A stretch of 64,000 bases of DNA, taken from NCBI GenBank assembly GCA_964017185.1, contig OZ024876.1, forward strand, positions 2,106,001 to 2,170,000, in the 5' to 3' direction. Below are positions 9,259-49,600 of the stretch, one piece after another. Source of the stretch: Rugalucina vietnamica. Taxonomy: Eukaryota; Mollusca; Bivalvia; Lucinida; Lucinidae. The notes beneath the pieces were generated by a model. The model had not been told where the DNA came from. It did no database searches and saw nothing but the letters and a program-made list of their open reading frames with translations. Position 1 is the first letter of the stretch, and the number at the start of each line of letters is the position of its first letter. The translations under genes were made by a program, and so were the position numbers.

Positions 9259-9640
9259 AATTTCTCCATCTGGACCAAAATAAGCCTAAATTCAGGCGAC
9301 GATCGCCAACAATTTAACCAAACTTCTCTGACAGTCGCTCCCTTGGTGAATCCAAAATGGCGTCCAATATCGGATCAACCGAACCGAACCTACTACGCCC
9401 GTGTCGTTTCGCTCAAGGGTTTCTGGATGTTTCGCAACCTGGTTCGTTCGCACTTAGTCGTTTCGCGACCTGCTATTGGTCCTTTCGCTACACAGTATTT
9501 TTCGCACCTTTTCGCAGCTTATGGACCCCAGTCGGTTCGCTACCACGTTGTTTTCCATGGCATCCCGTTAATTATTATTCACTCACTACTGAACCTCGAT
9601 CACGGCTTCACGACAATTATGACCGTTAATCAAAGGTTGG
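9259..9640. promoter_or_regulatory. Upstream region of the Bcl-2 gene
   Basis: Probable 5' UTR and promoter of the minus-strand gene. It is more GC-rich than its surroundings and contains CCAAAATGGCGTCC at 9350, a YY1-type core. Two overlapping plus-strand open frames start here but have no recognisable domain. No transcription start can be fixed from sequence alone. Confidence 0.35.
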
Positions 9641-23471: not shown

Positions 23472-24275
23472 ATGAATGGCCCTGAGAAAGCAGTTGACTG
23501 TGAAAACAGCGTAGAAACAACCCAAATCATTCCTGATCATGAGTTAAGTGATTTGAACGGAACAGAACCGTCCACAAAATCTGAATCATCACTCAGTTTG
23601 AGTTTCCAGTCAGATTTGTCAAATTTGTCCAACAGCCAACTAGATTTCAATGATCCGTTTGAGGGAATATTATATAGAACAGACGTGTTGGAATCAAAAT
23701 ATAGTATCTCGTTTGTTTCAAGCGTGCTCTTTGACTCGTTTAAAAATAAGATGCACGCAGATTATATGAGCAGTGTAGATATTGACGAGACCACTTTTAT
23801 GTCAAAATGCGCAACACATATAAATGGTGTTAAATGCGACATCAAATTAGATGCTCATTTTAAAACAGTAGAGCTCAGCGGCATGGGATTCCAAAAATGG
23901 AGAGAGGAGCGGTTTCCTAGAATTACGCAGTTTCTCCTCAAAAGGGTGGTGCAGAAAATGGACAGTATTGTCGAAGGGAGCATCAAGAGTGAGCAGGGAC
24001 CAACAGAATCGACAGAATCGGCAGAATCGGCAAATATAACGTTAAATGGTATACCAATTAGTGACGGGACATCTAAACAGCAATGTGACGTCAACGACAA
24101 CGTAGCGCCAAGATGTAACGTCGCGCAGTTAAACGACGACATAAATGGCGCGCTAAACGGTACCAATGAATTAATGAACGCCGTAGAGGACGACGACCTA
24201 GAAGAGAACACTTCTACATCTAACACAAAAAAAACAGGAATGTCTCCAAGCACCGCAGCAAATAATAGATTTTGA
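23472..24275 (+). pseudogene. LINE ORF1, N-terminal part (267 aa)
   Basis: Acidic, Ser-rich N-terminus, then a folded-looking segment (FMSKCATHINGVKCDI, GFQKWREERFP). A run of eight A at 24227-24234 precedes the frame change. With one A fewer the frame runs on as KKQECLQAPQQIIDFD directly into the next ORF, so the two are parts of one ORF1 of about 800 codons. No known domain was recognised in this part. Confidence 0.75.
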
Positions 24276-24336
24276 TGTAGCCGGAGAAGAGTATACTGCG
24301 GAAAATATTACTGATAGGTATAAGCGGACTGAACTT

Positions 24337-25863
24337 TTGGATGGCTCTCAGAAAGTAAACCGACAGCTTGTTCAAGACTTTCAAACCCAATATCTAGACA
24401 ACACATCAGTTCCCCCATTCACGTCTACTCCGAATGTACAACGTTTAGATGGCGCAAATCATGCTACTGCTTCAGCCAGTGAGAATGTCTGTTGGTTAAT
24501 GAACAGAATACAGCAACTTGATAACGACATAAAGACAATCAAACAAGATGTTATTAAACAGATGGAATGTAAGCTCACTGAACTCAAAGCTTCCTTGATT
24601 GCAATGATCGAGAAATCCAGTTCACAGAAAACATATGCCGACGCTATCGGAAGCCCAAAACCGGTATCTAGAACAGAAAACCAATCCACTGAAAACAGTC
24701 AAAATATTGAAGATTCCTGTTTTATTGATGAAGGCTACGGAGACCAGTCCGGAATAGATGCTAAAAGAAGTTCGTCCGAGACTCGTCTGAAAACTGTGTA
24801 TGTCGCTGATGACAGAGAAAATACCCAACAGCAGATTCACATCCTGACACCGATAGCCCCATCAGAAACTCAACAACGTGATCAAGCGATGGCGATTCAA
24901 CATCACGGGCCAGCAATACATACTCAACGCCATGGGCCAGCGAATATAGCTCAACGCCATCGGCCAGCGATTAGAACTCAACGCCATGGGCCAGCGATCA
25001 GAACACAACACAATGTGCCAACGACCAGAACTCAATTACCTGTAGAAAATCCTCAGCCAGTAACTGTACGAGTGACTAACAGAAACCAGTCATTTAGTCG
25101 GTCACTTCCAAATACCAGCCGGAACTTTTCAGGTTTTGCACCCACAACTAGAGATAAAACTTTAATTGTAGGCGATTCAATAATGAAGGGGATCAATTAC
25201 AGGGGATTACAGAAGGATGTTAAGATATGCACAAGAAGCGGTGCTACCATTGGTGATTTATGGGAAGAGATATCCATATATGATCTGAAGTCTTTTGCGC
25301 GAATCATAATCTGTATAGGGGGAAATGACTGCTCTAGCAGAAGGGATACCACCGAGTTCGAAGAGAAGTATGACCAGCTGATAGGATTTATCAAAAGTGT
25401 CAACAAAGATTGCTTGGTTTATGTTAGTAAAATAGTACCCAGAGGAGACGTTGATGTTTCATCATATAACAGCTCGATCCTGCGAATTGTGGACCACTGG
25501 GCAATGCATAACGTTTACTGCATTGGTGATTCGCATGAACTTTTCTTTGGAAAAGATCGGATGCCCTTGAGTAGATACTACTATAAGGACGGTGTACACC
25601 TATCACACTCAGGGACAAAACGATTACTGGATGCGTGGAATAGGCATGTACCGATTGTTCAGGACTATACTCAGTGTGTATATAAAGCCTCAAGATCTCC
25701 GAGAGTGATGAATAGACAAAGGCCGACCAATAATCCCGGAAGACATGATGACTACAATACAGGGCGTTATAGAAACAATGGACAAAGGGGAAATGGTAAT
25801 CGTCGATGTTACGGTTGCCACATGCAAGGACATATTTTGGCCGAATGCTGGAACTCACAATAG
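24337..25863 (+). pseudogene. LINE ORF1, esterase and CCHC part (508 aa)
   Basis: A coiled-coil-like region is followed by imperfect repeats of RTQRHGPAI (about residues 185-225). Then comes an SGNH/GDSL-type hydrolase domain (about 275-440) with GDSIMKG (block I), GGNDCS (block III) and DGVHLS (block V, Asp/His pair). The C-terminus has a zinc knuckle, CYGCHMQGHILAEC. Esterase domains of this type occur in ORF1 of CR1/L2 LINEs. The in-frame start here is probably not used if the upstream A-run frameshift is a mutation. Confidence 0.85.
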
Positions 25864-25974
25864 GGGTTTGGCACAATAGCCACTAGTGTAAATACACACT
25901 CACATTCATTTTATGACAGAAATCAATTTGAAGTTCTTGAAAGTATATGTAATGCGTGTAATACTTTACAGTGT

Positions 25975-26217
25975 TTGTGCCATGACACTTCTTCAGAGCT
26001 GGACTTGTTGAGTTACGATGTCGTATCAAAAAGTAATGACGAAAATGAATTATCAGAAAAAGTTTCATTTACTACTTGTATTAGTCAAGAAACATGCTCA
26101 ACTCAGCAACATTTAATTAATGCAAATGACGATGTTGAAATTGTTTTTGATGATGACCGTTTACTGCCTCCTCCTACTCCTTCTTCTTCTTCCTTTTCTT
26201 CTTCTTCTCTTTCTTCT

Positions 26218-26249
<32 letters not shown>

Positions 26250-27975
26250 TTCTTCTTCTTCTTCTTCTTCACAGAATTCAAGTAGATTGACGTCTTTAAA
26301 TACTATCACAAATTCTGAGAGTAAAAATGAATTCACATGTACGTCTAATTTGAGACCTGAAAATCCACTTTCGCTGAATTTAAAGAAAAAAGGTTTTAAC
26401 ATAGGTCATTTAAATATACAAGGTTTATGTGGAGATCATCTAAATAAGTTTTCAGAAGTTTCGGCATTGCTAACAAGTAAAGATAATGAAAAGTTACATA
26501 TTTTCGGTATGAGCGAAACTAAGTTAAAGAATCACAAATTGACAAGAACGTTTAAAATTAAAGGTTTTCATACTCCTTTTAGAAAAGATAATGACTCTAA
26601 TGGCGGTGGAGGTATTATTGTATATGTTAGAGATAATATTAATGCAAAACGACGGGAAGACTTGGAAACGAATGGTATTTCATGTTTATGGCTTGAGATT
26701 TCGCCTGATAAAGGTAAACCATTTTTAGTTGGAAATATGTATAGGCCACCCGATTCTAGAATTGAATATAATGACAGGTTTGAGGAATTTATAGATACTG
26801 TTTTGAATGAAGAAAAAGAGTTTATTCTGATGGGCGATATAAATAAAAATTTACTCAATAGTGATACTGACCGGGAATGGGGAAATTTCACAACATCCTT
26901 AGGCCTAACTCAGCTAGTAAATGAACCAACTAGAGTAACTAGCGACTCTAGAACTCTTATTGACCATATATACACTAATAATGAAGATAATATACAATGT
27001 ATTAAGGTTGAGAAATTGTGTCTGAGTGACCATTATGGTATATTTTGCAATCGATCTGCTCACGTCTCTTTTGAAAAGAATGATGAACATCAATATATTA
27101 CTTACAGGTCATTTAAAATGTTTGATGAACCTCGCTTTCTGAACGATCTTGCTATGGTTCCTTGGGAAATAATTGAAAGTTTTGATTCAATCGATGATAT
27201 AGTCTCAGTGTGGACATCGCTGTTCACAGAAATTCTTGACAAACACGCGCCTGTTAAAACTCAAAGGGTCAAACATAAATATCAGCCGGAATGGCTGACT
27301 CCAGAAATATTGGATTTAATGAAAGAACGCAATAAATGTAAACTAAATGGTAATATTTCTGCATACAAAATTCTAAGAAATAAGATCTCAACGTTAATAG
27401 GTATAGCAAAAAAGGATGCGTATAGATCGAAAATTGAAGATGGCAAATCTGATCCTAGAAATATCTGGAAATTATTTCAAGACTTTGGTATGAATAAAAA
27501 GGAAAGTGAAAATAAATCCAATATAAAGTTAAAATCAGATGACAAACTTGTTACAAACCAGATAGACTTGACTGAAGTTTTCAATGATTACTTCGTCAAT
27601 ATAGCATCGAAATTAAAAGAACCCCCAGCTAAGACGGATTTTGCCAAGCTAAATAATTATGTTTCTGCTAAGGTCCCACTTGGTACGGAATTCAAAATTC
27701 CATTGACAAATCATATTTTCGTTAAAAAGTTTTTGACAAGTTTAAATGTAAACAAATCTACAGGTCTCGACAATATAGGTCCAAAAATTCTAAAATTGTC
27801 TGCAGATGTCATAACACCAAGCATTTTATACATGGTTAATAAAAGCATATCATTAAGTCAATTCCCAGATTTATGGAAAGAAGCTAAGGTAAAACCATTG
27901 TTTAAATCTGGAAATAAAGATGATATTAATAATTACCGACCAATTTCAATATTGCCAACAATTTCAAAACATTGA
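25975..27975 (+). pseudogene. LINE ORF2, endonuclease and start of reverse transcriptase
   Basis: About residues 143-355 form an APE-type endonuclease: GHLNIQG, MSETKL, GGGGIIVYV, GNMYRPP, GDINKN, and SDHYGIF at the end. Reverse transcriptase begins with NKSTGLDNIGPKIL and NYRPISILPTISK, then a frameshift near 27962 ends the frame. The N-terminus holds a Ser run at about 70-102 encoded by a TTC/TCT microsatellite. Confidence 0.9.
26170..26271 (+). repeat. TTC/TCT microsatellite inside ORF2
   Basis: Encodes an almost pure serine run in ORF2; the frame stays open. Confidence 0.95.
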
Positions 27976-28356
27976 AAAATGGGTGGAAAAGCAGTTTTCT
28001 CAATATTTGAATGATTTTAACTTATTACACAAGTCTCAAAGTGGATTTCGTCCGAGGCACTCGACTGAATCCGCTCTAATTCTCATGGTAGATTCTTGGC
28101 TTAAGGCTATAAACGAAGGAAAGATAGTAGGCTGTGTTTTAGTTGATTTTCGTAAGGCTTTTGATTTAGTGGACCATGAAATTCTTTTAAGAAAATTAAA
28201 ATGTTATAAATGCAATGACTCGTGCTTATCTTGGTTTGAATCTTATTTATGTAATCGGAAACAGCGTGTATCTCTGAATAATCATCTATCATCTACATCC
28301 GATGTTATACATGGCGTTCCCCAGGGGTCTATTTTAGGTCCATTACTATTTTTGAT
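27962..28356 (+). pseudogene. LINE ORF2, middle of reverse transcriptase
   Basis: Continues ORF2 in another frame: KWVEKQFSQYLND, SGFRPRHSTESAL, VDFRKAFDLVDHEILL and HGVPQGSILGPLLFL. It stops in the nested insertion. The domain resumes at 29802 in register once the duplicated 12 bp are counted once. Confidence 0.9.
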
Positions 28357-29801
28357 GTTTCAATAGACATGATCTTCACAGCAAGACAGCTTCAGGAGAA
28401 ATGCCAAGAACAGAATGTAGATCTATACATGACGTTTGTTGACCTCACCAAAGCTTTTGACACTGTTAGTCGTGATGGACTCTGGAAAATCATGGCCAAG
28501 TTTGGCTGTCCACCCAGATTCATAGCTATGGTGCGGCAGTTTCATGATGGCATGCAGGCACGTGTGCAAAATGATGGAGAGTTCTCTGAACCATTTGAAG
28601 TAACAAATGGGGTCAAACAAGGCTGTGTTCTGGCACCAACACTGTTCAGCATGATGTTTTCTGCCATGCTTATGGATGCTTTTCAGGACAGTGACACTGG
28701 TTTTCCAATCAGGTACCGTTTTGATGGCAACATATTCAACCTCAGAAGGTTGCAAGCCAAAACTAAGGTCCAGACTGATGTGCTAGATGAGCTCCTCTAT
28801 GCAGATGATATGGATAAGAATGCCAACACAGAGGCAAAAATGCAAAGAGCCATGGATCAAGTCTCACAGTCATGTGATAACTATGATCTCACAATCAGCA
28901 CAAAAAAGACAGAGGTTGTACACCAACCAGCCCCCGGAAAACCATATAATGAACCAACCATCACTGTGAATGGGCAAAAACTGAAAGTTGTTGACAAGTT
29001 CACCTACCTGGGAAGCACTCTCTCCAGAGCAGTGCATATTGATGATGAGATCACTGCCAGAATTGCAAAAGCTAGTGTGGCATTCGGAAGACTCCGTGCA
29101 AATGTCTGGGAGCGAAATGGAATCAAGCTTGACACCAAGCTGAAAGTCTACAAGGCTGTGGTACTGCCAACCCTCTTGTATGCATGTGAGACCTGGACAG
29201 TATACCAACGCCATGCAAAGAGACTTAACCATTTCCACTTAAGCTGTTTGAGAAAGTTGTTAAAAATCAAGTGGCAGGACAAGATTCCAGACACAGAGGT
29301 CCTGAGGAAAGCAGGGATGCAAAGCATGCATACAGTCTTAAAGCTAGCACAGCTAAGATGGACTGGCCATGTTATAAGAATGCCTGATGCGCGACTTCCA
29401 AAGAAAGTTTTCTATGGAGAACTACAGGAAGGAAAGCGCTCTCAAGGTGGCCAGAAGAAACGCTACAAAGACACCCTCAAAGCCTCTCTGAAGGATTTCG
29501 AAATACCAATGGGGTCCTGGGAACAGACTGCACAGGAGCGATCAAAGTGGCGAGGTCTCATCAACAAAGGAGCAGCTCTCTATGAAAAGAAGAGAATCTG
29601 TGAAGCTGAAAGAAAGCGAAGAGAGCGCAAAGCCAAAACAAATGTGCCACCAGCAGACTCTATGACATTGACTTGCTCTACTTGCAACCGACAGTTTAGA
29701 GCCAGAATTGGCCTAGTCAGCCATCAAAGAACTCACCAACACACATCAGCACAATTCAAGAAATAATGATGGTCTTTCTCATTAGTGAGAGACGAACTAT
29801 C
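28357..29801 (+). mobile_element. Nested 5'-truncated LINE, 12-bp target duplication
   Basis: Flanked by ACTATTTTTGAT at 28345-28356 and 29802-29813, which fixes both borders. The insert carries one open frame and ends GAGACGAACTATC without poly-A. The relic at 10323-11562 has the identical terminus. The 5' border falls inside the reverse transcriptase, typical of incomplete target-primed reverse transcription. Confidence 0.95.
28369..29766 (+). CDS. Reverse transcriptase C-terminal half with zinc finger (465 codons)
   Basis: Open frame of 465 codons: VDLTKAFDTVSRDGLW, GVKQGCVLAP and the catalytic LLYADDM, then the thumb/connection region TYLGSTLS and LLYACETWTVYQ. It ends in a C2H2-type finger, CSTCNRQF followed by HQRTHQH. 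The N-terminal endonuclease and first RT blocks are missing because the insertion is 5' truncated. The long intact frame implies recent insertion. The clade is not certain: it is unlike the host CR1/L2 LINE and looks RTE- or Jockey-group-like. Confidence 0.9.
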   Translation: MIFTARQLQEKCQEQNVDLYMTFVDLTKAFDTVSRDGLWKIMAKFGCPPRFIAMVRQFHDGMQARVQNDGEFSEPFEVTNGVKQGCVLAPTLFSMMFSAMLMDAFQDSDTGFPIRYRFDGNIFNLRRLQAKTKVQTDVLDELLYADDMDKNANTEAKMQRAMDQVSQSCDNYDLTISTKKTEVVHQPAPGKPYNEPTITVNGQKLKVVDKFTYLGSTLSRAVHIDDEITARIAKASVAFGRLRANVWERNGIKLDTKLKVYKAVVLPTLLYACETWTVYQRHAKRLNHFHLSCLRKLLKIKWQDKIPDTEVLRKAGMQSMHTVLKLAQLRWTGHVIRMPDARLPKKVFYGELQEGKRSQGGQKKRYKDTLKASLKDFEIPMGSWEQTAQERSKWRGLINKGAALYEKKRICEAERKRRERKAKTNVPPADSMTLTCSTCNRQFRARIGLVSHQRTHQHTSAQFKK

Positions 29802-30711
29802 ACTATTTTTGATTTTTATTAATGACTTGCCTTTATACTTACAAAACAATACATCTACAATTGATTTGTATGCTGATGATACTACTATATATTATAGTGG
29901 CAGTGATAAATTAATGCTAGAAAGAAATTTGCAGAAGTCTCTTGACTGCCTTCAAATATGGTGTCGAGAAAATGGCATGATTTTAAACACAGATAAAACC
30001 AAAGTCATGCTTATAACCAGCAGGCAAAAGCGAATTAACTTGAATAATGCGGTTTTGAACCTCCAGTACAATGATATTGATATAGATATTACCACGTGTG
30101 ACAAAATCTTGGGTATTCATGTTGACAATAATCTGACGTGGAACGATCACTTTAATTTTTTGTCTAAAAAGTTGTCCTCACACTTGTGGCTTTTGAGCAA
30201 AATAAGAATTTATCTATCTATTGAACACAGAGTACTTTTCTACAATGCGTATATCAAACCTCACATTGACTATTGTAGTTTAATCTGGAGTAACACGTCC
30301 AGCACGAATATAAGCAAAATAACTAGATTGCAAAGAAGGGCATGCAAGCTGATTTTGGGGCATGAATATAATGGCTTGCCCGAGGCACTCGAAAAATTAA
30401 AGATGTTGTCATTTGATCAAAGTATTTTCCTCAGTAAAGCAAAAATTATGTATAAAATTCACAACAATTTGGCCCCTAGTTATTTGAATGAAATGTTTTT
30501 AATGCGAGATGCAAATCTTGATAATACAACTTCCAATTTAAGGTCTGTCGCAAATAAAAATTTTGTAGTTCCACTAGCAAAATGTAATCTTTTTAAAGGT
30601 AGCTTGACTTATTCAGGTGTAATTATTTGGAATAGTATCCCTGTCAGTATAAAGGATTCCTCATCCTTACAAATTTTCGTTAATAGGTGTACTGAGTGGC
30701 TTCTACATTAA
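29802..30711 (+). pseudogene. LINE ORF2, C-terminal part of reverse transcriptase
   Basis: Resumes after the nested insertion: LFLIFINDLPLYL, then catalytic DLYADDTTIYYS, ILGIHVDNNLTW, AYIKPHIDYCSLIW and WNSIPVSIK at the end. The stop is at 30709-30711. The apparent ATG upstream belongs to the inserted element. Confidence 0.9.
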
Positions 30712-32562: not shown

Positions 32563-33313
32563 AAATAGTTTCATATTCCTAGCAGGCGTATATGAAGCAA
32601 CTAATTACACGTATTCGGGAGCAGAAAAACAGCTTTCTCCTACGCATTTACATTAATATTGCACAAGAAATAGGCATCAATATAAGCAAGCAAAATCTTC
32701 TGCAAATTGCATCCAAGTGTTCAGACCATTAAGGATAATATTTTCCCATAATACGAGACCTCGGATCCAAAATATTTTATTGTATCCGAGCACGAAGCCA
32801 AACGTCATATTCAAGACGCAAAAAAATGAAAATAAATAAATAAATAAAGAAAGAAAGAAAGAAAGAAAGAAAAGGTAAGCGGAGTACCCGTCACGCCAAA
32901 TTATCTCCGTCAATGTAATACAGCAATGACTTGGTGTTGTATTGTCACAGTGTAAACAAATGCAGTATACAATATACAAGCCCAGTATAGCAAGAAAATT
33001 CCATTTCCATTCTCTGGCTGTACTGGAGCACTAACTGACCAGCTGGCCTGATTAAGAGGCCTATTCTCATTCCAGAGTTAGCGCATTCCCTGTATATAAC
33101 TTTATATTCAAGCTGCAATTCCAAGCCCCATGGCGGCCCAGTCCGGCTGTGTCAGATCTGATCGAAAACTTCAATGAAACATTTTATTGTGACACGGATC
33201 AATGAATGAACCCTGAGCTTTGAAAATCCGATTTCTTTATTTATAGATGAAAACATACCCGATTTTTAACCCATTAACCCATTTCGACACGATTTTGCTG
33301 GAGTAATATTAAT
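32563..33313. other. Intergenic, no gene
   Basis: Contains an AAAT/AAAG microsatellite at about 32827-32873. No coding sequence was recognised. Confidence 0.45.
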
Positions 33314-33548
33314 GAGCCGCATCGTGAGAAAACCGGATTTTTGCCTAGGCGAAAACAAAGGCGCAGATCAGCTTCGCGGTAACCGCGAAGCTGATCAGCG
33401 CCTTTGTTTTCGCTACACGGATAGTATATTTCCTCTTCTTCTTAAATCCGAAATTTCAAACTTCTAGCCTGCTTCTGAGCTTGTACAGCCCGGTTTGTGT
33501 CGGACCTGGTCGGAAATCCCGAAGACCGGTTTTCTCGCGTCGCGGCTC
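33314..33548 (-). mobile_element. Family A MITE
   Basis: Full-length copy with a perfect central hairpin around GCTTCGCGGTAACCGCGAAGC. The flanks do not show a clear duplication. Confidence 0.85.
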
Positions 33549-33791
33549 ATTTTGTGATTGCTCTCGGATAACGCCAATTATCGAGGTACGTTTATTGTTA
33601 TTAACATTTTATAATCGTTTTTTTTCTACGATGCCCTGATACAGCACACATGTATTGTGCATCGAGCACATATTACAAAAAAACTTTCGTCGTAGACTCA
33701 CGTCACAGATTCAGTCGTATGTGTGATCTGTGTAGATTTTTGGTACCGGTGTAGATGACCAAGAGGACGACCAAAAACGGGGAAATAATTT

Positions 33792-34023
33792 GAGCCGCCT
33801 CATGAGAAAACCAACAATGTGGTTTCCGAACAGGTCGGACACAAACCGAGCTGTACAAGCACATAAGATGACTAGAGGCTCGACATTTCGGATTTAGAAA
33901 AGTACTATCCGTGTAGCGAAAACAAAGGCGCTGATCAGCTTCGCGGTCACCGCGAAGCTGATCTGCGTCTTTGTTTTCGCCTATGCAGCCTGAATGATTA
34001 TTGGTTTTCTCATGATGCGGCTC
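33792..34023 (+). mobile_element. Family A MITE just upstream of the EXPERA-like gene
   Basis: Flanked by AATTT on both sides. It ends 17 bp before the ATG at 34041, so it must lie in the 5' UTR or core promoter of that gene. Confidence 0.88.
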
Positions 34024-34040
34024 AATTTTATATTAGCTAG

Positions 34041-34185
34041 ATGGCACCCAGTATGAATGAGATGCCCAAATGGATGGTGTCATGGTTCTACGCCACCGCT
34101 ATAATCTGTACGATAGATGCCACATTCGTTGTTTTCCGACCGCTCACACTGCCAGGGGGAGCATGGTTTAAATTCTTTTATCCAT
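34041..34185 (+). CDS. EXPERA-like gene exon 1
   Basis: ATG at 34041, donor CCAT|GTAAGTACT at 34185/34186, ends phase 1. It encodes the first membrane helix and FRPLTLPGGAWFKFFYP. Confidence 0.82.
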
Positions 34186-37100
34186 GTAAGTACTGTACAT
34201 TCACTTTTGGTTTAAATTCTTTTACCCAAGTACTGGACATGTATTCACTTTCGGTTTAAATTCTTTTACCCATGTAAGTGCTGTACATTTAAGAATTGGC
34301 TTAAATTCTTTTACCTATTTAAGTACTGTACATTCACTTTTGGTTTAACATGTGCATGTACTATAATTTTCAGACAAATGGTATATAACAGTTGACCAGC
34401 GGTACAATGACATCACAGATTCCTACTCCTATACACAGAGCCTGTAAGTTCACTGACAAATTTAGATTTATGAGTCTGTGGTTTTGTACTTTATACAATT
34501 GACTTTTTTTTATTCAGTTTAACGTCCCTTTCAAGATAACTTCAGCTCATACAGTAGTCGGGGAGAAAACGGGAGAACCCCTGTATACGTTTAGCGAAAA
34601 CAAAGGTGATGATCAACTGTGCAGTTACTGCACAGCTGATCTGCGCCTTTGTTTTCGTCATAGGCAAAAGTCCGGTTTTCTCGTGTCGAGGCTCACTTAT
34701 GGTCGTGGCGATATGTGGAAACAGCCTGCCTTCGATTCTTATTTGCGCAGCCATTACATGTATTCTGTGTTATCGGCCAAACGTGGCTCATTTGTTGAAA
34801 TAAGTGATTATTTTGAAGTATTTTCGAAAACATAACATTACATACGTTTTTGTGACTAATCAGGCTATGAAATTGTATTCCACAGGATGAACTATGCAGA
34901 GGTTGTTCTAAATATTGTCACACTGATTTTGGTAAGTACGGAAGCTCATTACGAAAACTTGCCCATGCAATATACAGAGATTTTTTAGCTTTAAAAATTG
35001 AAAATTTTCAGCTGAAAAATTTTGATATTTTTCTTATTTTTGCTCAAAACATAGATTGTGGGTACACGTTAGAACCGCCTCGCCGAGGCGGTTCTAACGA
35101 GTACCCACAATCTATGTTTTGGAGCAAAAATAAGAAAAATAGGTATACCCCTGCATACCCCAGTTTTTGTATATAAAAGTGGGGTTTAAGGGGGTAGACG
35201 CTTCACGGACATGTTTTCCTGATGTCATAACTCAGCCTAAAAAGGTTCAGCCAAAATGGCCGTCAAAGGTTCAGCCAAAATGGCCCAGGTTCGATATGGT
35301 TTCAATATGAACCGCGTCGTGGGAAAACTAACAATGAGGATTTTGTTAGGTTCTACACAAACCGACTAGAGGCTTGAGATTTCGGATTTAAGAAGAAGAG
35401 AAATTGTACAATCCGTGTAGCGAAAACAAAGGTGCTGATCAGCTTGGTGGTAAATACCACGAAGCTGATCTGCGTCATTGTTTTAGCCTATGCAACTTGA
35501 ATTGTTGGTTTTCTCATGATGCGGCTCAATTATGTAGTCTAATACGAACTTATTTGTATCTTTTTTTCAACGAGCATTTTGACGCAACGACAATATGCTG
35601 TAATTATGGGATCAAGCGATCGCGCAAGTAAATACGATTTGGCGCTCATGTCACACCAAAGTCCTGGCATTTACCGTCTCAGTAATAACCTCCCATCTCT
35701 TTCAGCACTATAGGCGATCATGTTACACCAAAGTCATGGCATTTGCCGTCTCAGTAATAACCTCCCATCTCTTTCAGCACTACAGGCGATCATGTCACAC
35801 CAAAGTCATGGCATTTACCATCTCAGTAATAACCTCCCATCTCTTTCAGCACTACAGGCGATCATGTCACACCAAAGTCATGGCATTTACCGTCTCAGTA
35901 ATAACCTCCCATCTCTTTCAGCACTACAGACGATCATGTCACACCAAAGTCATGGCATTTACCGTCTCAGTAACCTCCCATCTCTTTCAGCACTACAGGC
36001 GATCATGTCACACCAAAGTCCTGACATTTACCGTCTCAGTAATGACCTCCCATCTCTTTCAGCACTACAGGCGATCATGTCACACCAAAGTCCTGGCATT
36101 TACCGTCTCTGTAATGACCTCCCATCTCTTTCAGCACTACAGGCGATCATGTCACACCAAAGTCATGGCATTTACCGTCTCTGCAATAACCTCCCATCTC
36201 TTTCAGCACTACAGGCGATCATGTCATACCAAAGTCATGGCATTTACCGTCTCAGTAACCTCCCATCTCTTTCAGCACTATAGGCGATCATGTTACACCA
36301 AAGTCATGGCATTTACCGTCTCAGTAATGACCTCCCATCTCTTTCAGCACTACAGGCGATCATGTCACACCAAAGTCACGGCATTTACCGTCTCAGTAAT
36401 GACCTCCCATCTCTTTCAGCACTACAGGCGATCATGTCACACCAAAGTCATAGCATTTACCGTCTCAATAATAACCTCCCACCTCTTTCAGCACTATAGG
36501 CGATCATGTCACACCAAAGTCCTGGCATTTACCGTCTCAGTAATAACCTCCCATCTCATTCAGCACTACAGACGATCATGTCACACCAAAGTCCTGGCAT
36601 TTACCGTCTCAGTAATGACCTCCCATCTCTTTCAGCACTACAGGCGATCATGTCACACCAAAGTCATGGCATTTACCGTCTCAATAATAACCTCCCATCT
36701 CTTTCAGCTCTACAGGCAATCATGTCACACCAAAGTCCTGGCATTTACCGTCTCAGTAACCTCCCATCTCATTCAGCACTACAAGCGATCATGTCACACC
36801 AAAGTCATGGCATTTACCGTCTCAATAATAACCTCCCATCTCTTTCAGCTCTACAGGCAATCATGTCACACCAAAGTCCTGGCATTTACCGTCTCAGTAA
36901 CCTCCCATCTCTTTCAGCACTATAGGCGATCATGTTACACCAAAGTGATGGCATTTACCGTCTCAATAATAACCTCCCATCTCTTTCAGCACTACAAGCG
37001 ATCATGTCACACCAAAGTCATGGCATTTACCGTCTCGGTAATGACCTTCTGGAAGACTGTGCTCTATATCGCCATGTTCTTTGAACTGGCCGGTGGCAAA

Positions 37101-37322
37101 GACTACCGCCAGGGGAATACCCTGGTACAGGAAATATTCATTGTGTACCTCACCAATGGTGCTTGGATTCTGTTTCCCTACCTCTGCATGGCATCACTGT
37201 GGAAGGGGTTGGCGACGGGAGGTGGCGGTAGTGAGAGGTCGGTTGATAAAGGTTACGTAGAGGTGAAGACGTCACATGGTGTTATGAGAGACCAAGAAGC
37301 TAGGCACCGGAAAGGTGTTTGA
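34041..37322 (+). CDS. EXPERA/emopamil-binding-like membrane protein, four exons, ~197 aa
   Basis: Join 34041-34185, 34374-34443, 34886-34931 and 36990-37322. All borders are GT/AG and all phases agree, giving 197 aa. Four hydrophobic segments are visible: WMVSWFYATAIICTIDATFV, NYAEVVLNIVTLIL with its neighbour, VMTFWKTVLYIAMFFELA, and FIVYLTNGAWILFPYLCMAS. Motifs IDATFVVFRPL, YITVDQRYND and FWKTVLY resemble EXPERA-domain proteins (EBP, TMEM97 relatives), which are ER sterol-isomerase-related or lipid-binding proteins. The exact activity is unknown. The polar C-tail (about 45 residues) is Gly/Ser/Lys-rich. The exon 1 donor and exon 4 acceptor are both embedded in tandem repeats of themselves. 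Confidence 0.8.
34165..34347 (+). repeat. 44-bp tandem repeat containing the exon 1 donor
   Basis: GGTTTAAATTCTTTTA-type starts at 34165, 34209, 34253, 34298 and (partial) 34342. The first is the coding end of exon 1. The donor GTAAGT survives at 34186 and 34274 and is decayed in the other units. Confidence 0.88.
34374..34443 (+). CDS. EXPERA-like gene exon 2
   Basis: Acceptor AATTTTCAG before 34374, donor CCT|GTAAGTT after 34443. It encodes KWYITVDQRYNDITDSYSYT. Confidence 0.82.
34585..34694 (+). mobile_element. Family A MITE fragment in intron 2
   Basis: Central hairpin and right arm only: GCGAAAACAAAGGTGATGAT to CGTGTCGAGGCTC. Confidence 0.75.
34886..34931 (+). CDS. EXPERA-like gene exon 3
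   Basis: Acceptor TATTCCACAG before 34886, donor TTTTG|GTAAGTACG after 34931. Short 46-bp exon encoding MNYAEVVLNIVTLIL, ending in phase 0. Confidence 0.8.
34947..35224 (-). mobile_element. MITE family B in intron 3
   Basis: Inverse of the copy at 31185. It has a near-perfect central palindrome around GAACCGCCTCGCCGAGGCGG. Confidence 0.87.
35309..35527 (+). mobile_element. Family A MITE in intron 3
   Basis: GAACCGCGTCGTGGGAAAAC to GTTTTCTCATGATGCGGCTC. The central hairpin apex is changed to CTTGGTGGTAAATACCACGAAG. Confidence 0.82.
35641..37046 (+). repeat. 69/72-bp tandem array of 3' splice site plus exon start, ~19 copies
   Basis: Each unit holds a branch-point-like TAATAAC or TAATGAC, a pyrimidine tract, CTCTTTCAG, and then coding HYRRSCHTKV and MAFTVSV. 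Unit length is 72 or 69 bp, always a multiple of three. A 3-bp loss (AATAACC to AACC) makes the short units. The first complete acceptor is at 35705 and the last, which I take as the exon 4 border, at 36989. The frame of exon 4 stays open across 35736-37322 without a stop. Confidence 0.93.
36990..37322 (+). CDS. EXPERA-like gene exon 4 (terminal)
   Basis: The last repeat-array acceptor, CCATCTCTTTCAG, is followed by HYKRSCHTKVMAFTVSVMTF and then unique sequence to the TGA at 37322. Phase 0 matches exon 3. Any of about 18 upstream repeat acceptors would give the same frame with extra 23/24-residue repeats. Confidence 0.78.
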   Translation, partial: HYKRSCHTKVMAFTVSVMTFWKTVLYIAMFFELAGGKDYRQGNTLVQEIFIVYLTNGAWILFPYLCMASLWKGLATGGGGSERSVDKGYVEVKTSHGVMRDQEARHRKGV

Positions 37323-38735
37323 TCAGGACTATGTACGATGATGTTTTAAGTTTGTAAAAAGTTCATGTGACACGCTGGTTCTAAATAACATGCAGAACAG
37401 ATACAGTAGTAGGTCATTGCTAAAATTCCGACTTACGATTGAAGTATGTGAAGGGGATCTAGTGTAGTGTCATTTGCGAAAATCTTGCTGCTTAAAGGCC
37501 TAAGTCAGCCTGGCAAGAGATTAATACCTTTATTGAGACAGGTTATACAGGTAGAGAAATGCTACTGTGCAGTTACTGTCATATTTATTGTCTTATCCCC
37601 CAAGACACTACCTGTTTGAATAAAGTGCAATAAAATTAATCACAAGTATGGGCATTTAGGTATTTATGGTTATCTATATTACAAGCAAGCATATTTTAGT
37701 TATTCCATAGGTAGCAGCCACAGCCAATCAAATGCTGCGCGGTAGATGTTAACCCTTTGGTGTCTAGACAAATACTGAGATAAGCTACCTAATTTTGCCT
37801 TTTATAGTCCGCCTATACACGCCAAAGCTAACTTACCAAACTGCATACGCCCGTTATTGCATTCCGGGATCATGAGTTGCCGATTCATATGTATAATTCG
37901 GCAAATAGGTTACTGTATGGGCGTTACCTCATGAATACATTATTGGGTATGGTCTACCTTTGACTTAGGTAAAAGTTAGAAGTATACATTTAAACGATTA
38001 AACTCACGTTACCAGAAAATAAGTTGCAACATTTTTCATCTTGTAAAATGCCTTATGAAGATTAGAATATATTGTTACCTCCCTTTGACCGTTATCCTTT
38101 GTAACTGCGGTGGAGCTTATTGTTATAGCTTGATTGGTCACATTCGCTCACTTTAAATATTTTTTGAGGACAAAGGAATGTTTTCCCTACTTGAACAGAT
38201 GGACTAGCCGACCACGCCCAGATATGAATATTAAAGTTGCCGCCTATACAGTAACCTATTTGCTCAAGTATACATATATGGTTCTATGTTTGACGACTCT
38301 TAGCCGATTGTTTCAATGAATCGCATTTTATTTTGCATAGAACATGGTATAAGCAATGGTTGGTTGGTTGATTCAGGTTTAACGTCCCACCAACAGCTAA
38401 GGTCATATGGAGACGGGACCTCGCAATGGAAGCATGTCACCATTCAGCCACTGATACCCGGTTGGATTGCACTGGTTTGTTGCTTTGCAAAATGATTTTC
38501 AAACAACAGTGTATAATTATTTTGCTTTATTGCTTGTAAAGATAGTTGTTCTAAAAATCTCAAACAATTATATTAGTGTACAATGTGGTTATATATACAT
38601 AGTAAAATTATACAGCTGTATTAATATCAGTACAGTAACACCAACTATAGTAAAATTGATATGGATATGCAACTACCTTGGTCAAAGAGTCCCCACTCAT
38701 GAGTGACCACATATACTCAAAGGTGTCTAAGTAAT
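37323..38735. other. 3' UTR and intergenic; possible TIR element
   Basis: Follows the EXPERA-like stop; AATAAA-like signals are at about 37619 and 37631. GCAAATAGGTTACTGTATGGGC near 37903 and its inverse near 38238 suggest an element of about 350 bp. A family E fragment with TTTAACGTCCCACCAACAGC lies at 38360-38460. Confidence 0.45.
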
Positions 38736-38882
38736 AGTTAGAGTATGGAGGTGAGCTCAATACGAAAATTATAGACCCGGGCACGTGAACTTAAAGCCGA
38801 CCGAGCGCAGCGAGGGAGGCTTTAAGTTCACGTGCCCGGGTCTATAATTTTCGTATTGACCGATACCGACATACTCTAACTG
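38736..38882. repeat. Palindromic MITE with perfect 40-bp inverted arms
   Basis: The arm 38760-38799 (AATACGAAAATTATAGACCC ...) is exactly mirrored at 38820-38859, separated by GACCGAGCGCAGCGAGGGA. Looser outer arms AGTTAGAGTATG and CATACTCTAACT extend it to 38736-38882. Confidence 0.9.
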
Positions 38883-38887
38883 ACTTA

Positions 38888-39801
38888 TATACTAGCTCCT
38901 TTGTTTCGCTATAACAAATGCTACACAGCGAGCCGATTGACCAAACCTTGCGCAGTATGCTTAGACCAATTATATTCTGTTAAAGCGTGTTTTCTCGCGA
39001 CATGAATATTGGCCAAAAATCCCACGGACTAACTGTGAACGATATTTTCTTTCCTCGTGCAGTCATGTCCAAAAATAACTTTCACAGTAGCTTCCCCTTA
39101 AAACGTCGTCGAGGTTATTAAGCGATCAAGATTTAATGCAAATAATTCAATACCATTTAAGTATGATTTTTGTATATCTATATATTGTGCGTAAACTGAT
39201 TTGAAAGTGTAGATCACTTCTACTTGGATCTGTCATAGGCTAATCCCCATGCTGAAATGACAGAGGACCATTTACTGAATTTTACTGAATGCCCGGCTGT
39301 TTATGGGGGAAACAGCTGGTCAAAACTAACTTTGTGAAGTTCGTTCCTACTTCCGTGGTTTCTCATTAACCTCACACTAACCCTAACCTTCTACACTACC
39401 AATGAAACCATGGGGCGAGGAATATTTTCACACAGAAATGTACGTGCAACGGTACGTTTGAAATAATACAATTTTGCCTCATCTGAAAGAATTTCGGATA
39501 CTCAGTAGGAAGACAATTTGTATTTACCTTTACCATGATTTGCTGGGAAAACGTACAATCAGCATAAGCATGAATACAGCGAAAGCATTTTTTGCGGTGC
39601 AGCTGAACCGTTACATAAACTTACTGTTGTGTCTAATATATAACAGCGTACATCTACGGGAGGTTTATAAGTTTCCCGCCAGATATTATCAACCGGTTGA
39701 TAATAAAAAGCGCGAAACTTATCAACCTCCCTCCTAAATTTCCTTTGTTTAGCAGGTCAATACGTTTGTTATAGACCTGTTCGAAACAAAGGAGCCAGTA
39801 T
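38888..39801. mobile_element. 914-bp element with 23-bp inverted termini
   Basis: TATACTAGCTCCTTTGTTTC on the left and GAAACAAAGGAGCCAGTATA on the right are inverted with one mismatch. The flanks are TATA-rich, so the duplication is ambiguous (TA or TATA). The interior has a hairpin near 39655-39730 (GGAGGTTTATAAGTTTCCCG and GCGCGAAACTTATCAACCTC) and no transposase. Confidence 0.7.
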
Positions 39802-39879
39802 ATAAAGCATGTCATCGTGCAAATCTTAATGATTTCTACAAAACAAGGTAACCCGATTGCGAAGAGTGCAGACAGATAT

Positions 39880-40113
39880 GAGCCGCCTCATGGGAAAACC
39901 AACAATCTGCCTAGGCGAAAACAAAGGCGCAGATCAGCTTCGCAGTAACTGCGAAGCTGATCAGCGCCTTTGTTTTCGCTACTCGGATAGTACAATTCCT
40001 CTTCTACTTAAATCCGAAATTTCAAGCTTCTCGCTCTTTTCCGTGACTGTACAGGTCGGTTTGTGTCGGACCTGTTCGGAAACCACATTGTTGGTTTTCC
40101 CACGAGGCGGCTC
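39880..40113 (-). mobile_element. Family A MITE
   Basis: Full-length copy with a perfect central hairpin around GCTTCGCAGTAACTGCGAAGC. It lies downstream of the SLC16-like stop codon. Confidence 0.86.
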
Positions 40114-43600: not shown

Positions 43601-46600
43601 AGTTTGTGTGTGACTTGTCGTAAACCCAAATTGTTAGTTTTCTCACACGATGGCTCAGTTATGGTATTGTCACGTTTTCAATGAACAACTACCATCAGGA
43701 AAACATCCATGAAAAGTATAACCCCTTGAACCCCATTTTAATATATAGTAAGATAGGGTATAGAGGGGTTACAACTTTTCTTATTTTTGATCCAAAACAT
43801 AGATTGTGGGTACTCGTCGAGGGGCCGCGGTGCACCCGCAATGTATGTTTTGAGCAAAAATATTGAAAATGTAAAAAAATCTACTGAAAATTTTCAAGTT
43901 TTACAACTTCTGAAAAATCTGTGTAGTACATGGGCATGTTTGCAAAAAGTGAAGGATCTCTAAAACTAACCTGCTATGAAATTGTTGGCAATAGTGGTAG
44001 AGCCGGCAAACAGGCCCAGTAGACCCTCTACCCAGCGGATATACTGTCGACTGAAGGCTATCGGAATAACCCACCGCAGTACGGTCTCGAACACAACTGT
44101 CAAAACAAGTAAAAGAAAGTGGTTACACAAAGCAAAAATTAATAATATTGACTCACAGGCTTTCGGGCCAGTCGTAAACGGTATAGAGTGAATGTCTTTC
44201 GATCAATCAGAATTGTTTAAGATTCTTTTTCGAGTTCTTTTGTTTTCCTTCCGAATTTTAGGAGCATGATCCTAGTTTTCGCAACAACTTGAAACTTTCA
44301 CCCTAATGCTTACGAATGCTTGCAAATGCTACTTTCTAGCGATTAATGCGAATCTGCGCAAAACTGCATTCGGAAGGGCATTCGCAAGGGAAATTCGGTA
44401 CATGTGAGAGCAGTATAACAAAGTGTAACGTTACCTTGTAGGGCTCCCAATATGGCGGTATATGCCGCGATATACGACACATATGGACTGTAGAACATAG
44501 GTAGCTGCACCGTCAGCAGTCCGAGAACCAACCCAATACAGCCCATAGCAATCATGGTCCCGTGGAACCTCTTCTTGGCCGGCCAGAAGGCGAGGGCGAT
44601 GTAGCCCAGGGTGGCACCACACGGGTACAGGAAGATGGCAATGAGGATGTGCTGGGTCGTGAACGGGGACCCGGACCCGAGGAGATCGAAGAACCCGGCG
44701 TCCATCCAGTAGATAAGTTCGGTCATCGGCAGGCTCTCACCTGAATGATATGTGTGGTACATTTAACTTAGTTGTGTCACGGTAGCGAAAAAAATACTTT
44801 TCTTTAGTAGACCATATTTCTATCTATCTATCTTCATATACTGAGTCGATCAATTGCCACATGCACATTGTCAATAAAGCTTATGATATTGCACGTCTCA
44901 TTAATTAAAATGTTAAAGGTATAATTGGAAGGTGAGGTACCACCACTTACCGAAGTAATAAATCCCGTAAACAAGTAAGGTCAAGATAAGAATTCCTCCG
45001 CGGCAGAATGACAGGGACCGCAGCTTGAGCGCGTCCACACAATCCCTGATGTGTCTGTGGTCCTTGATGAGGGGGAGAGGCGCTATGACAATACTGGTGA
45101 AGAAGGCCACCCCCGCGGGGGCACAGACACACTTGTAGTAGATATGCCAGCCAGTCATGTCCTCTATGTCGGCTCGAGTAGCGTCTCCCTGACAAAATAA
45201 ATACATAATGTAGTATGAAGACTGTGTGACACACTGAAATATCGTCTTATTCTCTCTAATTCACACAGCATATCAACTAATTCCAACAAATATAATTCCT
45301 GGCTATAGAACGGACCATAGTGGCATTACAATGGATTTGGTTTTAAATTACAACAATGAACGTGGAAAGGGATATTGGAAATTTAATAACTCGTTACTTA
45401 AGGATCAAGAATACATTAAACTAGTTAAAGATACAATATCAGAAGTCAAATTAACGTACACCAAGAACAATAATAATAACAATGATAACACTAATTCAGA
45501 ACAAACAGAATTCAACATAAATGATCAACATTTTTTGGAAACACTTCTACTTATTATTCGCGGAAACACAATAAAATACAGCTCATTTAAAAAGAAACAA
45601 CATCAACAAGAAGAATTGAAGTTAGAACAAGAAATTAAGATACTTGAAAATGAAGTATATAAAAATTTTGAAAAATATGTCCGAGGAAACTTTAAATAAC
45701 CTAGATAGAAAGAAAACAATGTTATATGATATTCAAAAAGCTAAGATTGAAGGAATGATGCTGCGCTCTAGAAGCAGGTATGAAGAATTAGGAGAAAAAC
45801 CTACCCATTACTTTTTTAATTTAGAAAAACGAAATTATACTAGTAAAGTGATTCAAAAATTAATTAATACAGAGGGAGAAGAGTAAAAATACAAACACAG
45901 CTGACATTTTAAAATGCCAAGCAAATTTTTATAAAGATTTATATACGCAAGAAAAGTTAGATAGAAATATTTCAATTAGCTCAGTCTTAGGGAAAAATGA
46001 TAAAAAATTATCAGATAAGGAATCGCAGGAATTAGAAGGTGAGATATCTTACTCAGAATTAACTTTCGCACTGAAAAACATGAAAAATGATAAAAGTCCC
46101 GGTCTGGACGGATTTACGGTGGAATTTTTCAAGTTTTTTTTGATCGACATTGGTTGTTTTATTCTTAAATCCTTAAACTATGGTTATTGTACAGGCTCGT
46201 TGAGTATTACACAGAAACAGGGTGTGATTACTTGTATACCCAAACCAAATAAATCTAAATTTAATTTAAAAAAAACTGGCGGCCTATTTCTTTACTTAAC
46301 GTGATCTATAAACTTGCATCAGCAGTCATATCTAATAGACTTAAGAAAGTACTAGATAATTTAATTAACGAAAATCAAAAAGGCTTTATCGCGGGAAGAT
46401 TTTTAGGGGAAAATGTTCGATTAATCTACGATATACTATTTGAGGCGAAAAAAACAAAATGTACCTGGCTTAATGTTGTCTATTGACTGAAAAAGCATTT
46501 GATACAGTATCATGGGGTTTTATTTCTGATGTCCTAGATTATTTTAATTTTGGAAATTCGATTAAAAAATGGATAAGTCTATTTCAACAAGGGTCCGAGA

Positions 46601-49600
46601 CACGTATTTTACAAAACGGTTTTATGTCAGATAGTTTTTATTTAGGAAGAGGTTGTAGACAAGGAGACCCTATCTCCCCTTATTTATTTATACTATGTGC
46701 AGAAATTTTAGGAAAAATGATATTAAAAAACAATGACATTAGAATGACATTAGAATATAAGTTATCACAATATGCAGACGACACTCAACTGATATTAGAT
46801 GGCACAGAAAAATCGTTAAAAGCAGCTATGGAAACACTTAAACAATTTTATATTATGTCAGGTTTGAAAATAAATGTTGAAAAAACAAGAGCGTTATGGA
46901 TCGGTTGGTCGTGCGGCTCTCATGAAACACTCTGTGAAGAATTAGCATTAGATTGGTCCCAAGAACCCTTAAAAATCTTAGGTGTTACATTCTCACCATT
47001 AGTTTTTAACATATGGGACTTAAATGTTAATGAAATTTTGAGAAAAGTTAAACATCTGCTGAATCAGTGGTCGAAACGTAAATTAAGCCTCTCAGGGAGA
47101 ATTACAATAATAAAATCTCTTGCGATATCCAAATTTGTTCACCTATTCATCTCGTTGCCAGACCCACCTAATGCATTAATAAAGGAACTTGAACATATAT
47201 TTTACAAATTTCTTTGAAATTCTGGACCGGATAGAATAAAAAGAAAAAATATTGTTAAGAATATTGCTTGTGCTGGTCTCAGAATGGTTGAACTAAGATC
47301 ATTTATTAAAGCATTAAAGGTATCCTGGCTCAGACGAATATTGCAACAATCAAAGCAAATGGAATGGATAAACCTATCCCAAATTAATTTTCAGATGCTC
47401 TTTTCTGTCGGAGGTTCCTATGCAACTAAATTAGATAATAACCTGTATAATCCATTTTGGAAAAATTTAATGGCAAATTGGGCCGAATTTTGTAAAATTT
47501 TACCGGTTGAAAAGGTATCTCATATGCTTGAATCGCCTATTTGGTATAACGAAAATATAGGGCGAGGAAAACTCTTTATAAACAAGAAAAGATATGACAC
47601 AAGTGTCATATCAATAGCTTCAATTTTCTATCGCAGTCAATAACGTATAAAAGACAAAGCGCGCACCGAGCGTGTGGAAAAATATGCCGCAAATTCAACC
47701 AATGTATTCCCATAGACATACATACGTGGTTTGTCAGAAAAGTTCGTGTACACCATTTATATTTTCAACAGAAAAATGAATATATCTGCTTTTGCAAAAG
47801 TATTTTATAAGCAAATATACAAGAAATTTTATTGAAATCTGACAAAAACACGTCATCTACAGCCTTTTCCCTGCACTTCCGAACCGAGTGCGGGGCAAAG
47901 GTCAACGTCTCTATTTGACGTTACTTGACATTTTAAGCCGCCAGCGCGTAATACATTTGTTTCAGGGTGTTTTTTTTTTTTAACAAAAGATCCTTGGCTA
48001 TCAACATTTTTATGTCTGTGTATCCAGCTGTCAAATGCAGATACGCCGTACCAATTCTCGCAAAATTGTTCGTCCACCTGTTGAACATGTGTAACAATTT
48101 CTTGCGGCGAGTATGCCAGACAGGTGATCTTCCGTTTATCAACATAGGTGGACTTCTGAGCAGCTGAAAATCGTCTGTGCCACAACTACTGAGAACTAAA
48201 TAGTAACTGACAGACCGATGACGTTTCTGTTGTTTGTAACATTTTCATCGTATCTGTGGGTGATTTCCTTAACGAAACATACAATCGGCGTCGGCTGTTC
48301 TCCGACGTCAAATTACGCCATTATTTCAAACAGATTTTTCGGTCTGCTTCTGATTTTTTTCACATAAATCAAACAACACTGCCGCCAAGTCGGAATCTTT
48401 CTGAAACTGAAGTCAGTGTTATTTGGTTTTAGGACGAGATGTTTTAATGTTATAACATATTTAAGTGCCGTTTGACAGGGAAAAACACAATATGAAAATC
48501 GTCACATTTTGTTGACGTTTTGGCACCTGTCCCGTGTGGCCCTACGTACGCTTAAGTAGAAAATATGTCATATTTAACGTGTTGATACTTCAAATTGAAA
48601 CAAATTCCTCAAATATGCTCATAAGATATTGCTGCTTATATTTATACAAAAACAAAAAAAAACTTAAACAACAGCACTTTACTTTTCCTGCTAGCCAAGG
48701 TGTCCACAAACCTCGTACATGTGCGTTCTGTACGCTTGGTGTACGTTAAAGTATTTTAAGCATGCAGCATGCTTAAAGCTCGACGTGTCTCGGGTATGTG
48801 TCTTATACGAATAAGTTCAACACGCGTTACATTAAACGTTTGATACGCGCCTATACTGTATTGTGTGCTTAACATAACTGTACAAAAGTACATGCAATCC
48901 AAAATTTTCAGCATGCTGAGATTATTATACGACCTGTACACACCTTAGACACACGCTAATCATTTGTGACTGTTATTTTCACCATAGAGACTATGGGCCC
49001 CCCTCCCATTGGGGCCTAAAGAAATAGATATAGGCTACTTGTGCCTTCAGGTAAAGCTAAAACCACTGCTGTCTGGTTAACCGCGCTTGTCTGAGCCTGC
49101 CCAGGAAACATTTCAAGTCAAACCATCCATACGTATAAGCCTTTTGTGTCTTAGTTGGATAGTTATATTTCAAGCACTTGTTGGATGTGATGACATCCTC
49201 ATTTTGGGTAAAAGTCCCGTAAAATGGAGGCAACATCCCAACATGACAAGTCCCTGAAGCAGCATAGAAGCTTGAAATTTCGGATTTAATAAGAAGAGAA
49301 AGTGTACTATCCGTGTAGCGAAGTTACTGCGAAGCTGACCTGCGCCTTTGTTTTCGCATAGGCAAAAATCCGGTTTTCTTGTGACGCGGTTCATTTGATA
49401 ATGCAACATTCATCTGTCTGGGTCTACCAGTTATCGCCAGTACTGAACAACTTCTTTCAGCGTACTGCTTAATAGACTCCATAAAAAAGGAAGAATAAAA
49501 ACGAATGAAGAAAGAAAAGAGGCTTATTATGATAACAAAAAAAAAAATGAATAGCGGATACTCGGCGAGATTCGAACCTGTAAGAGTCTGATTAGAAGAT

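Follow-up and report, generated by a model that had tools for sequence, protein, structure and literature searches.

An exon-intron junction that has been duplicated in tandem, with a complete 3' splice site in almost every copy, lies at 35641..37047 (+ strand) of the 64,000-nucleotide stretch analysed here (the window), which occupies positions 2106001-2170000 of contig C8. The array comprises 20 copies of a 72- or 69-bp unit, the first and the last being partial, and is very probably a near-neutral mirage, in which splicing uses the site nearest the exon and removes the copies together with the intron. It is one of at least ten junction-spanning arrays in the genome (three at acceptors and seven at donors), the at least nine beyond it being one at the exon 1 donor of the same gene, two at other acceptors and six at other donors. 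As in mirages, the units span the exon-intron boundary, the copies hold splice signals, and several loci are involved at both 5' and 3' boundaries. The class is already published, as the amphioxus mirages, and the array described here is a new example of it.

TRF gives the main array (35641-37047) a period of 72, 19.7 copies and 92% matches. The unit consists of the first 57 nt of exon 4 and the last 15 nt of intron 3 (TCCCATCTCTTTCAG), and the array has one match in the whole 1.09-Gb genome assembly (47 contigs); on both grounds, an origin from a mobile element was rejected. No Rfam match at gathering score was found within 33000-40000. When the array is cut at its 19 acceptors, 20 copies result; the first of them (35641-35705) is truncated and has no acceptor ahead of it. 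Between the acceptors lie 18 full units, 14 of 72 nt and four of 69 nt, all four sharing one and the same 3-nt deletion, and the copies end in CTCTTTCAG (17 of 19) or CTCATTCAG (2 of 19). From the first acceptor AG (35704..35705, +) to the last (36988..36989, +), every acceptor keeps its AG and pyrimidine tract and lies at a distance of 0 mod 3 from the last (19/19). The first-pass annotation, which described about 19 tandem 3' splice sites, each in frame, in units of 69 or 72 bp, is borne out by these counts; the unit is divided differently, with 15 nt of intron where ~30 bp had been given and 57 nt of exon in place of ~40 bp. The branch-point-like TAATAAC that it noted in each unit is present, but had been wrongly placed in the intron part: the motif (TAATAAC or TAATGAC) derives from the exon, so that each copy would supply the branch point of the next. 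The left flank (35604-35660) holds CAAGCGATC, whose only other occurrences in the window are in two array copies (36782 and 36995), and is perhaps the remnant of a further, disrupted first copy.

Scored with a simple matrix, 16 of the acceptors reach 6.6, one 6.1 and two 4.4; because the 19 score nearly alike, sequence gives the last one no advantage. Copies also contain a second AG 8 nt downstream of the acceptor (CACTACAG and variants), which is frame-breaking and scores, where listed, 3.7-5.9 versus 6.6 for the main acceptor.

The host gene has four exons with canonical splice sites, all on the + strand: exon 1 (34041..34185, ATG to donor), exon 2 (34374..34443), exon 3 (34886..34931) and the last exon, exon 4 (36990..37322, last acceptor to stop codon). 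Splicing to the last acceptor, across an intron 3 of 2058 nt, gives a 197-aa protein with about four hydrophobic segments by hydropathy; splicing to the first, across 774 nt, gives a much longer protein, also in frame. Relatives of the gene form a cluster on contig C1, where paralogues have exons similar to exons 1 and 2; an exon similar to exon 3 was seen by eye in one paralogue (P2) and was not located in another (P1). In P1, the boundary of exon 4 has a single acceptor (...ctatttttcag followed by NHKKSLHTKPLAFTVSVMTFWKTVLY) and corresponds to that of the last array copy (...ctctttcag followed by HYKRSCHTKVMAFTVSVMTFWKTVLY). Over the first 30 residues of exon 4, the P1 protein is identical at 22/30 positions when reading starts from the last acceptor, versus 10/30, 12/30 and 10/30 for the three upstream acceptors tested. 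As P1 has the same boundary as the last copy, the last acceptor is ancestral, and the upstream copies are therefore tandem duplications of 15 nt of intron and 57 nt of exon; exon 4 does begin at the array junction, as had been proposed. In the C1 cluster, none of the exon edges that were located coincides with a TRF row.

The label 'EXPERA-like' initially given to the gene (for the domain, see PMC4263179) found no support: PF05241 (EBP/EXPERA) does not match the spliced 197-aa protein at E<=1, a sequence search for solved relatives found none at E<=10, and the gene lies outside the 8 places in the genome that match the EBP family. Loci of the adh_short family were of little use as controls, each of the 19 matches covering nearly the full length of the family as a single block.

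Between the first acceptor and the array's end, the frame that carries on from exons 1-3 contains 0 stops, confirming an earlier observation; the other two forward frames contain 36 and 4. The array might accordingly encode a ladder of isoforms, with several acceptors used to insert 0-18 extra in-frame copies of 23/24 residues between the second and third membrane-like segments, a reading that we consider improbable. It would account for all 19 acceptors sharing one phase with no in-frame stop, unlike those of the two sister acceptor arrays described below, and, if true, would imply transcripts with whole 72-nt units, peptides from HYRRSCHTKVMAFTVSVITSHLFQ and a repeat number that varies with allele length. 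Against it, the extra copies would interrupt a membrane-like segment that is conserved (VMAFTVSVMTFWKTVLYIA), and differences between units lack clear coding constraint: 22 substitution types comprise 8 synonymous, 14 nonsynonymous and 0 to stop, where a lack of constraint would predict 23-27% synonymous changes and about 4% stops (P(>=8 synonymous) = 0.11-0.22; P(no stop among 22) = 0.35-0.44). The comparison of synonymous and nonsynonymous changes suggested in the first-pass annotation thus gave no clear signal, at a power that is low, since the absence of stops would become surprising (at 3%) only with ~80 independent changes. A 24-codon unit has in any case roughly a 1 in 3 chance, (61/64)^24, of being free of stops, and the units differ from each other at a mean of only 4.25 positions. 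The open frame would thus be the outcome expected from low divergence and a 3n period. Its translation through the array matches Pfam only below the cut-off (DUF7439, E 0.0014).

Further evidence against a ladder comes from the two sister acceptor arrays, which were reached by a genome-wide pattern search for TTTCAG triplets; among the matches listed (first 26 Mb of C1), four arrays were examined and two, L066 and L069, are clear junction arrays. L066 (C1:11300800-11303300) has 11 acceptors exactly 68 bp apart, after an upstream open exon and intron. Only its last acceptor opens an exon, running into ...RHIIKECHKRMPSHQLQDLL and then gtaggt, and the upstream acceptors all hit a stop (10/10, or 10/11 of all acceptors). 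The gene gave no family match, and its model therefore rests on open frames and splice sites. L069 (C1:6847000-6850400, minus strand; 81 bp x 21.4) belongs to a DDX42-like gene, in which a match to DDX42 (PDB 8hk1_E; E=6.9e-32) extends over the two exons and straight through the last acceptor. There are 20 unit starts in L069 (19 AG, one GG): 7 remain open and 13 reach a stop, for which a single TAG, a 2-nt deletion and an (AAT)n insertion inside a copy are responsible.

Because the sister arrays break the frame or bear stops, being thus indifferent to it, an isoform ladder is not how the class works, and selection on frame as a general rule is ruled out. Frame preservation, presented in the first-pass annotation as the point of the system, consequently loses that role, and the in-frame feature of the main array is most likely incidental. 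A main period divisible by three occurs in 3/10 junction arrays, as chance gives. In the other seven it is always 2 mod 3 and never 1 mod 3, a pattern seen in a small sample.

The same arrays bear on a second alternative, compatible with the mirage reading, in which upstream acceptors are decoys that compete with the functional site and tune output through transcripts that are lost or delayed. That all 19 acceptors retain their signals would fit such a role, as would the premature stops that most upstream acceptors in the two sister arrays would yield, but no upstream acceptor of the main array gives a stop in the coding phase, so that it could hardly act via nonsense decay. Nor is selection on the signals seen beyond a non-significant trend: the intron-derived part has 2 types of variation in 17 columns versus 20 in 55 for the exon-derived part (Fisher test, p 0.07 by types and 0.12 by columns), a weak hint of constraint on splice signals. 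We regard tuning by decoys as highly improbable.

Two more tandem arrays from the TTTCAG search, L067 (about 73 bp) and L068 (51 bp, with copies that look open throughout by eye), have strong acceptor-like signals and an ambiguous link to an exon. The search returned 3317+3058 triplet matches versus 1123+914 for the backward control; enrichment is not claimed, because the motif itself is commoner (TTTCAG to GACTTT, 237 to 116 or 2.04 times, in the sequence examined) and one array is counted many times.

On the donor side, the host gene carries a second array (34164..34348, +; 44 bp x 4.2 by TRF) that spans the end of exon 1 and its donor and fills most of intron 1 (188 nt). GTAAGT is intact in 2/4 copies, the first and the third, and use of the copy-3 donor, 88 nt downstream, would break the frame. 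Seven arrays with a period >=20 and >=3 copies occur in the 211 kb examined and two of them are this gene's pair, a coincidence that was found by looking and carries no P value. Also in the window are a tandem array of 151 bp x 13.8 at 553-2631 (TRF), with a 156-bp array in the neighbouring L002; a Bcl-2 family exon at 8623-9285 on the minus strand (Pfam E=2.9e-25); and reverse transcriptase, endonuclease and GDSL-lipase-like frames at 24202-30708 and 46474-47214 (+), which probably belong to retroelements.

Donor arrays elsewhere in the genome were sought with AGGTAAGT triplets, the matches listed covering C1, and C2 up to 81.4 Mb. After a dispersed GTAAGTAGACC repeat and a GTAGG simple repeat (C2:4172890) had been set aside, six arrays were left (L070-L075). 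Among the matches listed, an open reading frame runs into the first copy in 6/6 arrays, and an acceptor-like AG is visible by eye ahead of each exon (weakest in L071). Four of the six exons match a family: one is GABA-B receptor-like (PDB E=6.3e-8; Pfam 7tm_3 1.1e-6, below cut-off), one an EB module (Pfam 4.9e-7, above cut-off), one UCHL3-like (PDB 7e-4; Pfam 5.8e-5, below cut-off) and one Sld5-like (3.6e-4, below cut-off, with a padded query). The exons of L070 and L074 gave no family match, L070 having only a chance-level one; the L070 exon presumably resembles JADE proteins. Spacings in the stretches read are 53/56, 56, 53, 57, 50 and 50 (L073 also has 59 further on), with 9 donors in the stretch read of the GABA-B-receptor-like array and 11 overlapping triplets in the UCHL3-like array.

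Counts of AGGTAAGT triplets (341+301 vs 140+84 for the control) are swollen by the dispersed repeat, whose GTAAGTAGACC-type donor-like motifs occur at many places on C1 and C2, and the total of AGGTAAGTG triplets falls under that of its control (34+27 vs 53+17). Among the arrays listed for AGGTAAGTG, L070 and L074 were read. At C14:9801924-9805470, two AGGTAAGTG blocks with 59-bp spacing and 17 and 9 overlapping triplets (at least 30 copies, from coordinates only) are possibly a very long donor array.

These observations are consistent with a mechanism in which tandem duplication across the intron 3/exon 4 junction would have given rise to a minisatellite, each copy bringing a complete acceptor made of the exon-derived branch-point-like sequence, a pyrimidine tract and CAG. 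When the last acceptor is spliced, all copies would be removed with the intron and the mRNA would be unchanged; arrays of this kind would therefore be nearly neutral, growing and shrinking like other minisatellites. They could then accumulate at donors, where the first copy would be used, and at acceptors, where the last would be, whatever the period. Conserved genes that carry frame-breaking copies presumably splice often enough at the site nearest the exon body; the sister arrays and published RT-PCR on amphioxus mirages lead us, by analogy, to infer that the last acceptor is mainly used in the host gene as well. The junction arrays, in short, look like self-effacing minisatellites.

Exon definition, a choice by closeness across the exon, would probably be what selects the last acceptor. 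When flanking introns are long, splicing favours the sites nearest to each other across the exon, according to PMC9225289, which concerns internal exons; exon 4, being terminal, falls outside that class. The same paper gives, for 3' sites >=20 nt apart, an overall upstream preference that is reduced rather than stated to be reversed with long introns, and this preference speaks against the last acceptor and for the first, and also counts in favour of a ladder. The short intron 1 also counts against exon definition: at that length, the rival rule, nearest across the intron, would favour the frame-breaking copy-3 donor.

Predominant use of the first acceptor might instead mark a dying gene, with an inert long protein and an incidentally open frame. 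That site would gain from being nearer the donor and from being transcribed earlier, but exons 1-4, the splice sites and the core FTVSVMTFWKTVLY, which is common to P1, are all intact even though the units have already diverged, and we judge this reading most unlikely. Arrays such as these, with many near-identical competing sites in genes of known families, offer a natural experiment on spliceosome choice: closeness under exon definition predicts the last acceptor and the first donor, and closeness across the intron or first-come choice predicts the opposite.

The first-pass annotation knew of no described system of this form, yet amphioxus mirages, human boundary tandem repeats and a human multi-donor minisatellite all precede it. 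The last of these, in the human 6-16 (G1P3) gene, reportedly provides multiple splice donor sites (Turri et al. 1995, by title) and lies on the donor side, whereas the main array here is on the acceptor side. Tandem acceptors of the NAGNAG type lie a few nucleotides apart and have a common branch point; those of the array differ in being 69-72 nt apart, with a branch-point-like sequence of their own in each copy. What the two have in common is competing tandem 3' splice sites, the subject of PMC2423196 and PMC2875228. For human segmentally duplicated genes, PMC2812944 describes tandem repeats at exon-intron boundaries that account for 27 intron modifications; these repeats resemble the present case as minisatellites that alter gene structure at such boundaries and differ from it in their novel introns, their repeat-retaining transcripts and their units, which average 30 bp in 4 copies.

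A genome-wide census of junction arrays was not found in the literature searched (open-licence PMC papers). The closest relatives are the amphioxus mirages, of which those in Adh3 were reportedly described by Canestro et al. in 2002. Mirages of the globin genes BflGb6 and BflGb9 occur at both boundaries, and the paper also cites Adh3 units of 10-72 bp and other loci, takes Adh3 data and its own RT-PCR to suggest that regular splicing is undisturbed, and proposes mirages as a route to intron gain (PMC3087553). PGBD5 and TnC add further amphioxus examples, with splicing likewise reported to be undisturbed (PMC3902484). The BflGb6 mirage has two haplotypes, of 6 and 3 units (PMC3087553), and polymorphism in array length is by analogy plausible here. 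The arrays described here resemble amphioxus mirages as minisatellite-like duplications of intron-exon boundaries that occur on both the acceptor and the donor side, keep splice signals in many of their copies and involve several genes per genome. The main array is distinguished by its 20 copies (against 6 and 3 in BflGb6), its fully open frame and its setting in a 1.09-Gb genome, which is larger than the known amphioxus assemblies. A search for PF01581, tried as a lineage marker, yielded no match anywhere, controls included. If the host is not a lancelet, mirages would thereby be extended beyond cephalochordates.
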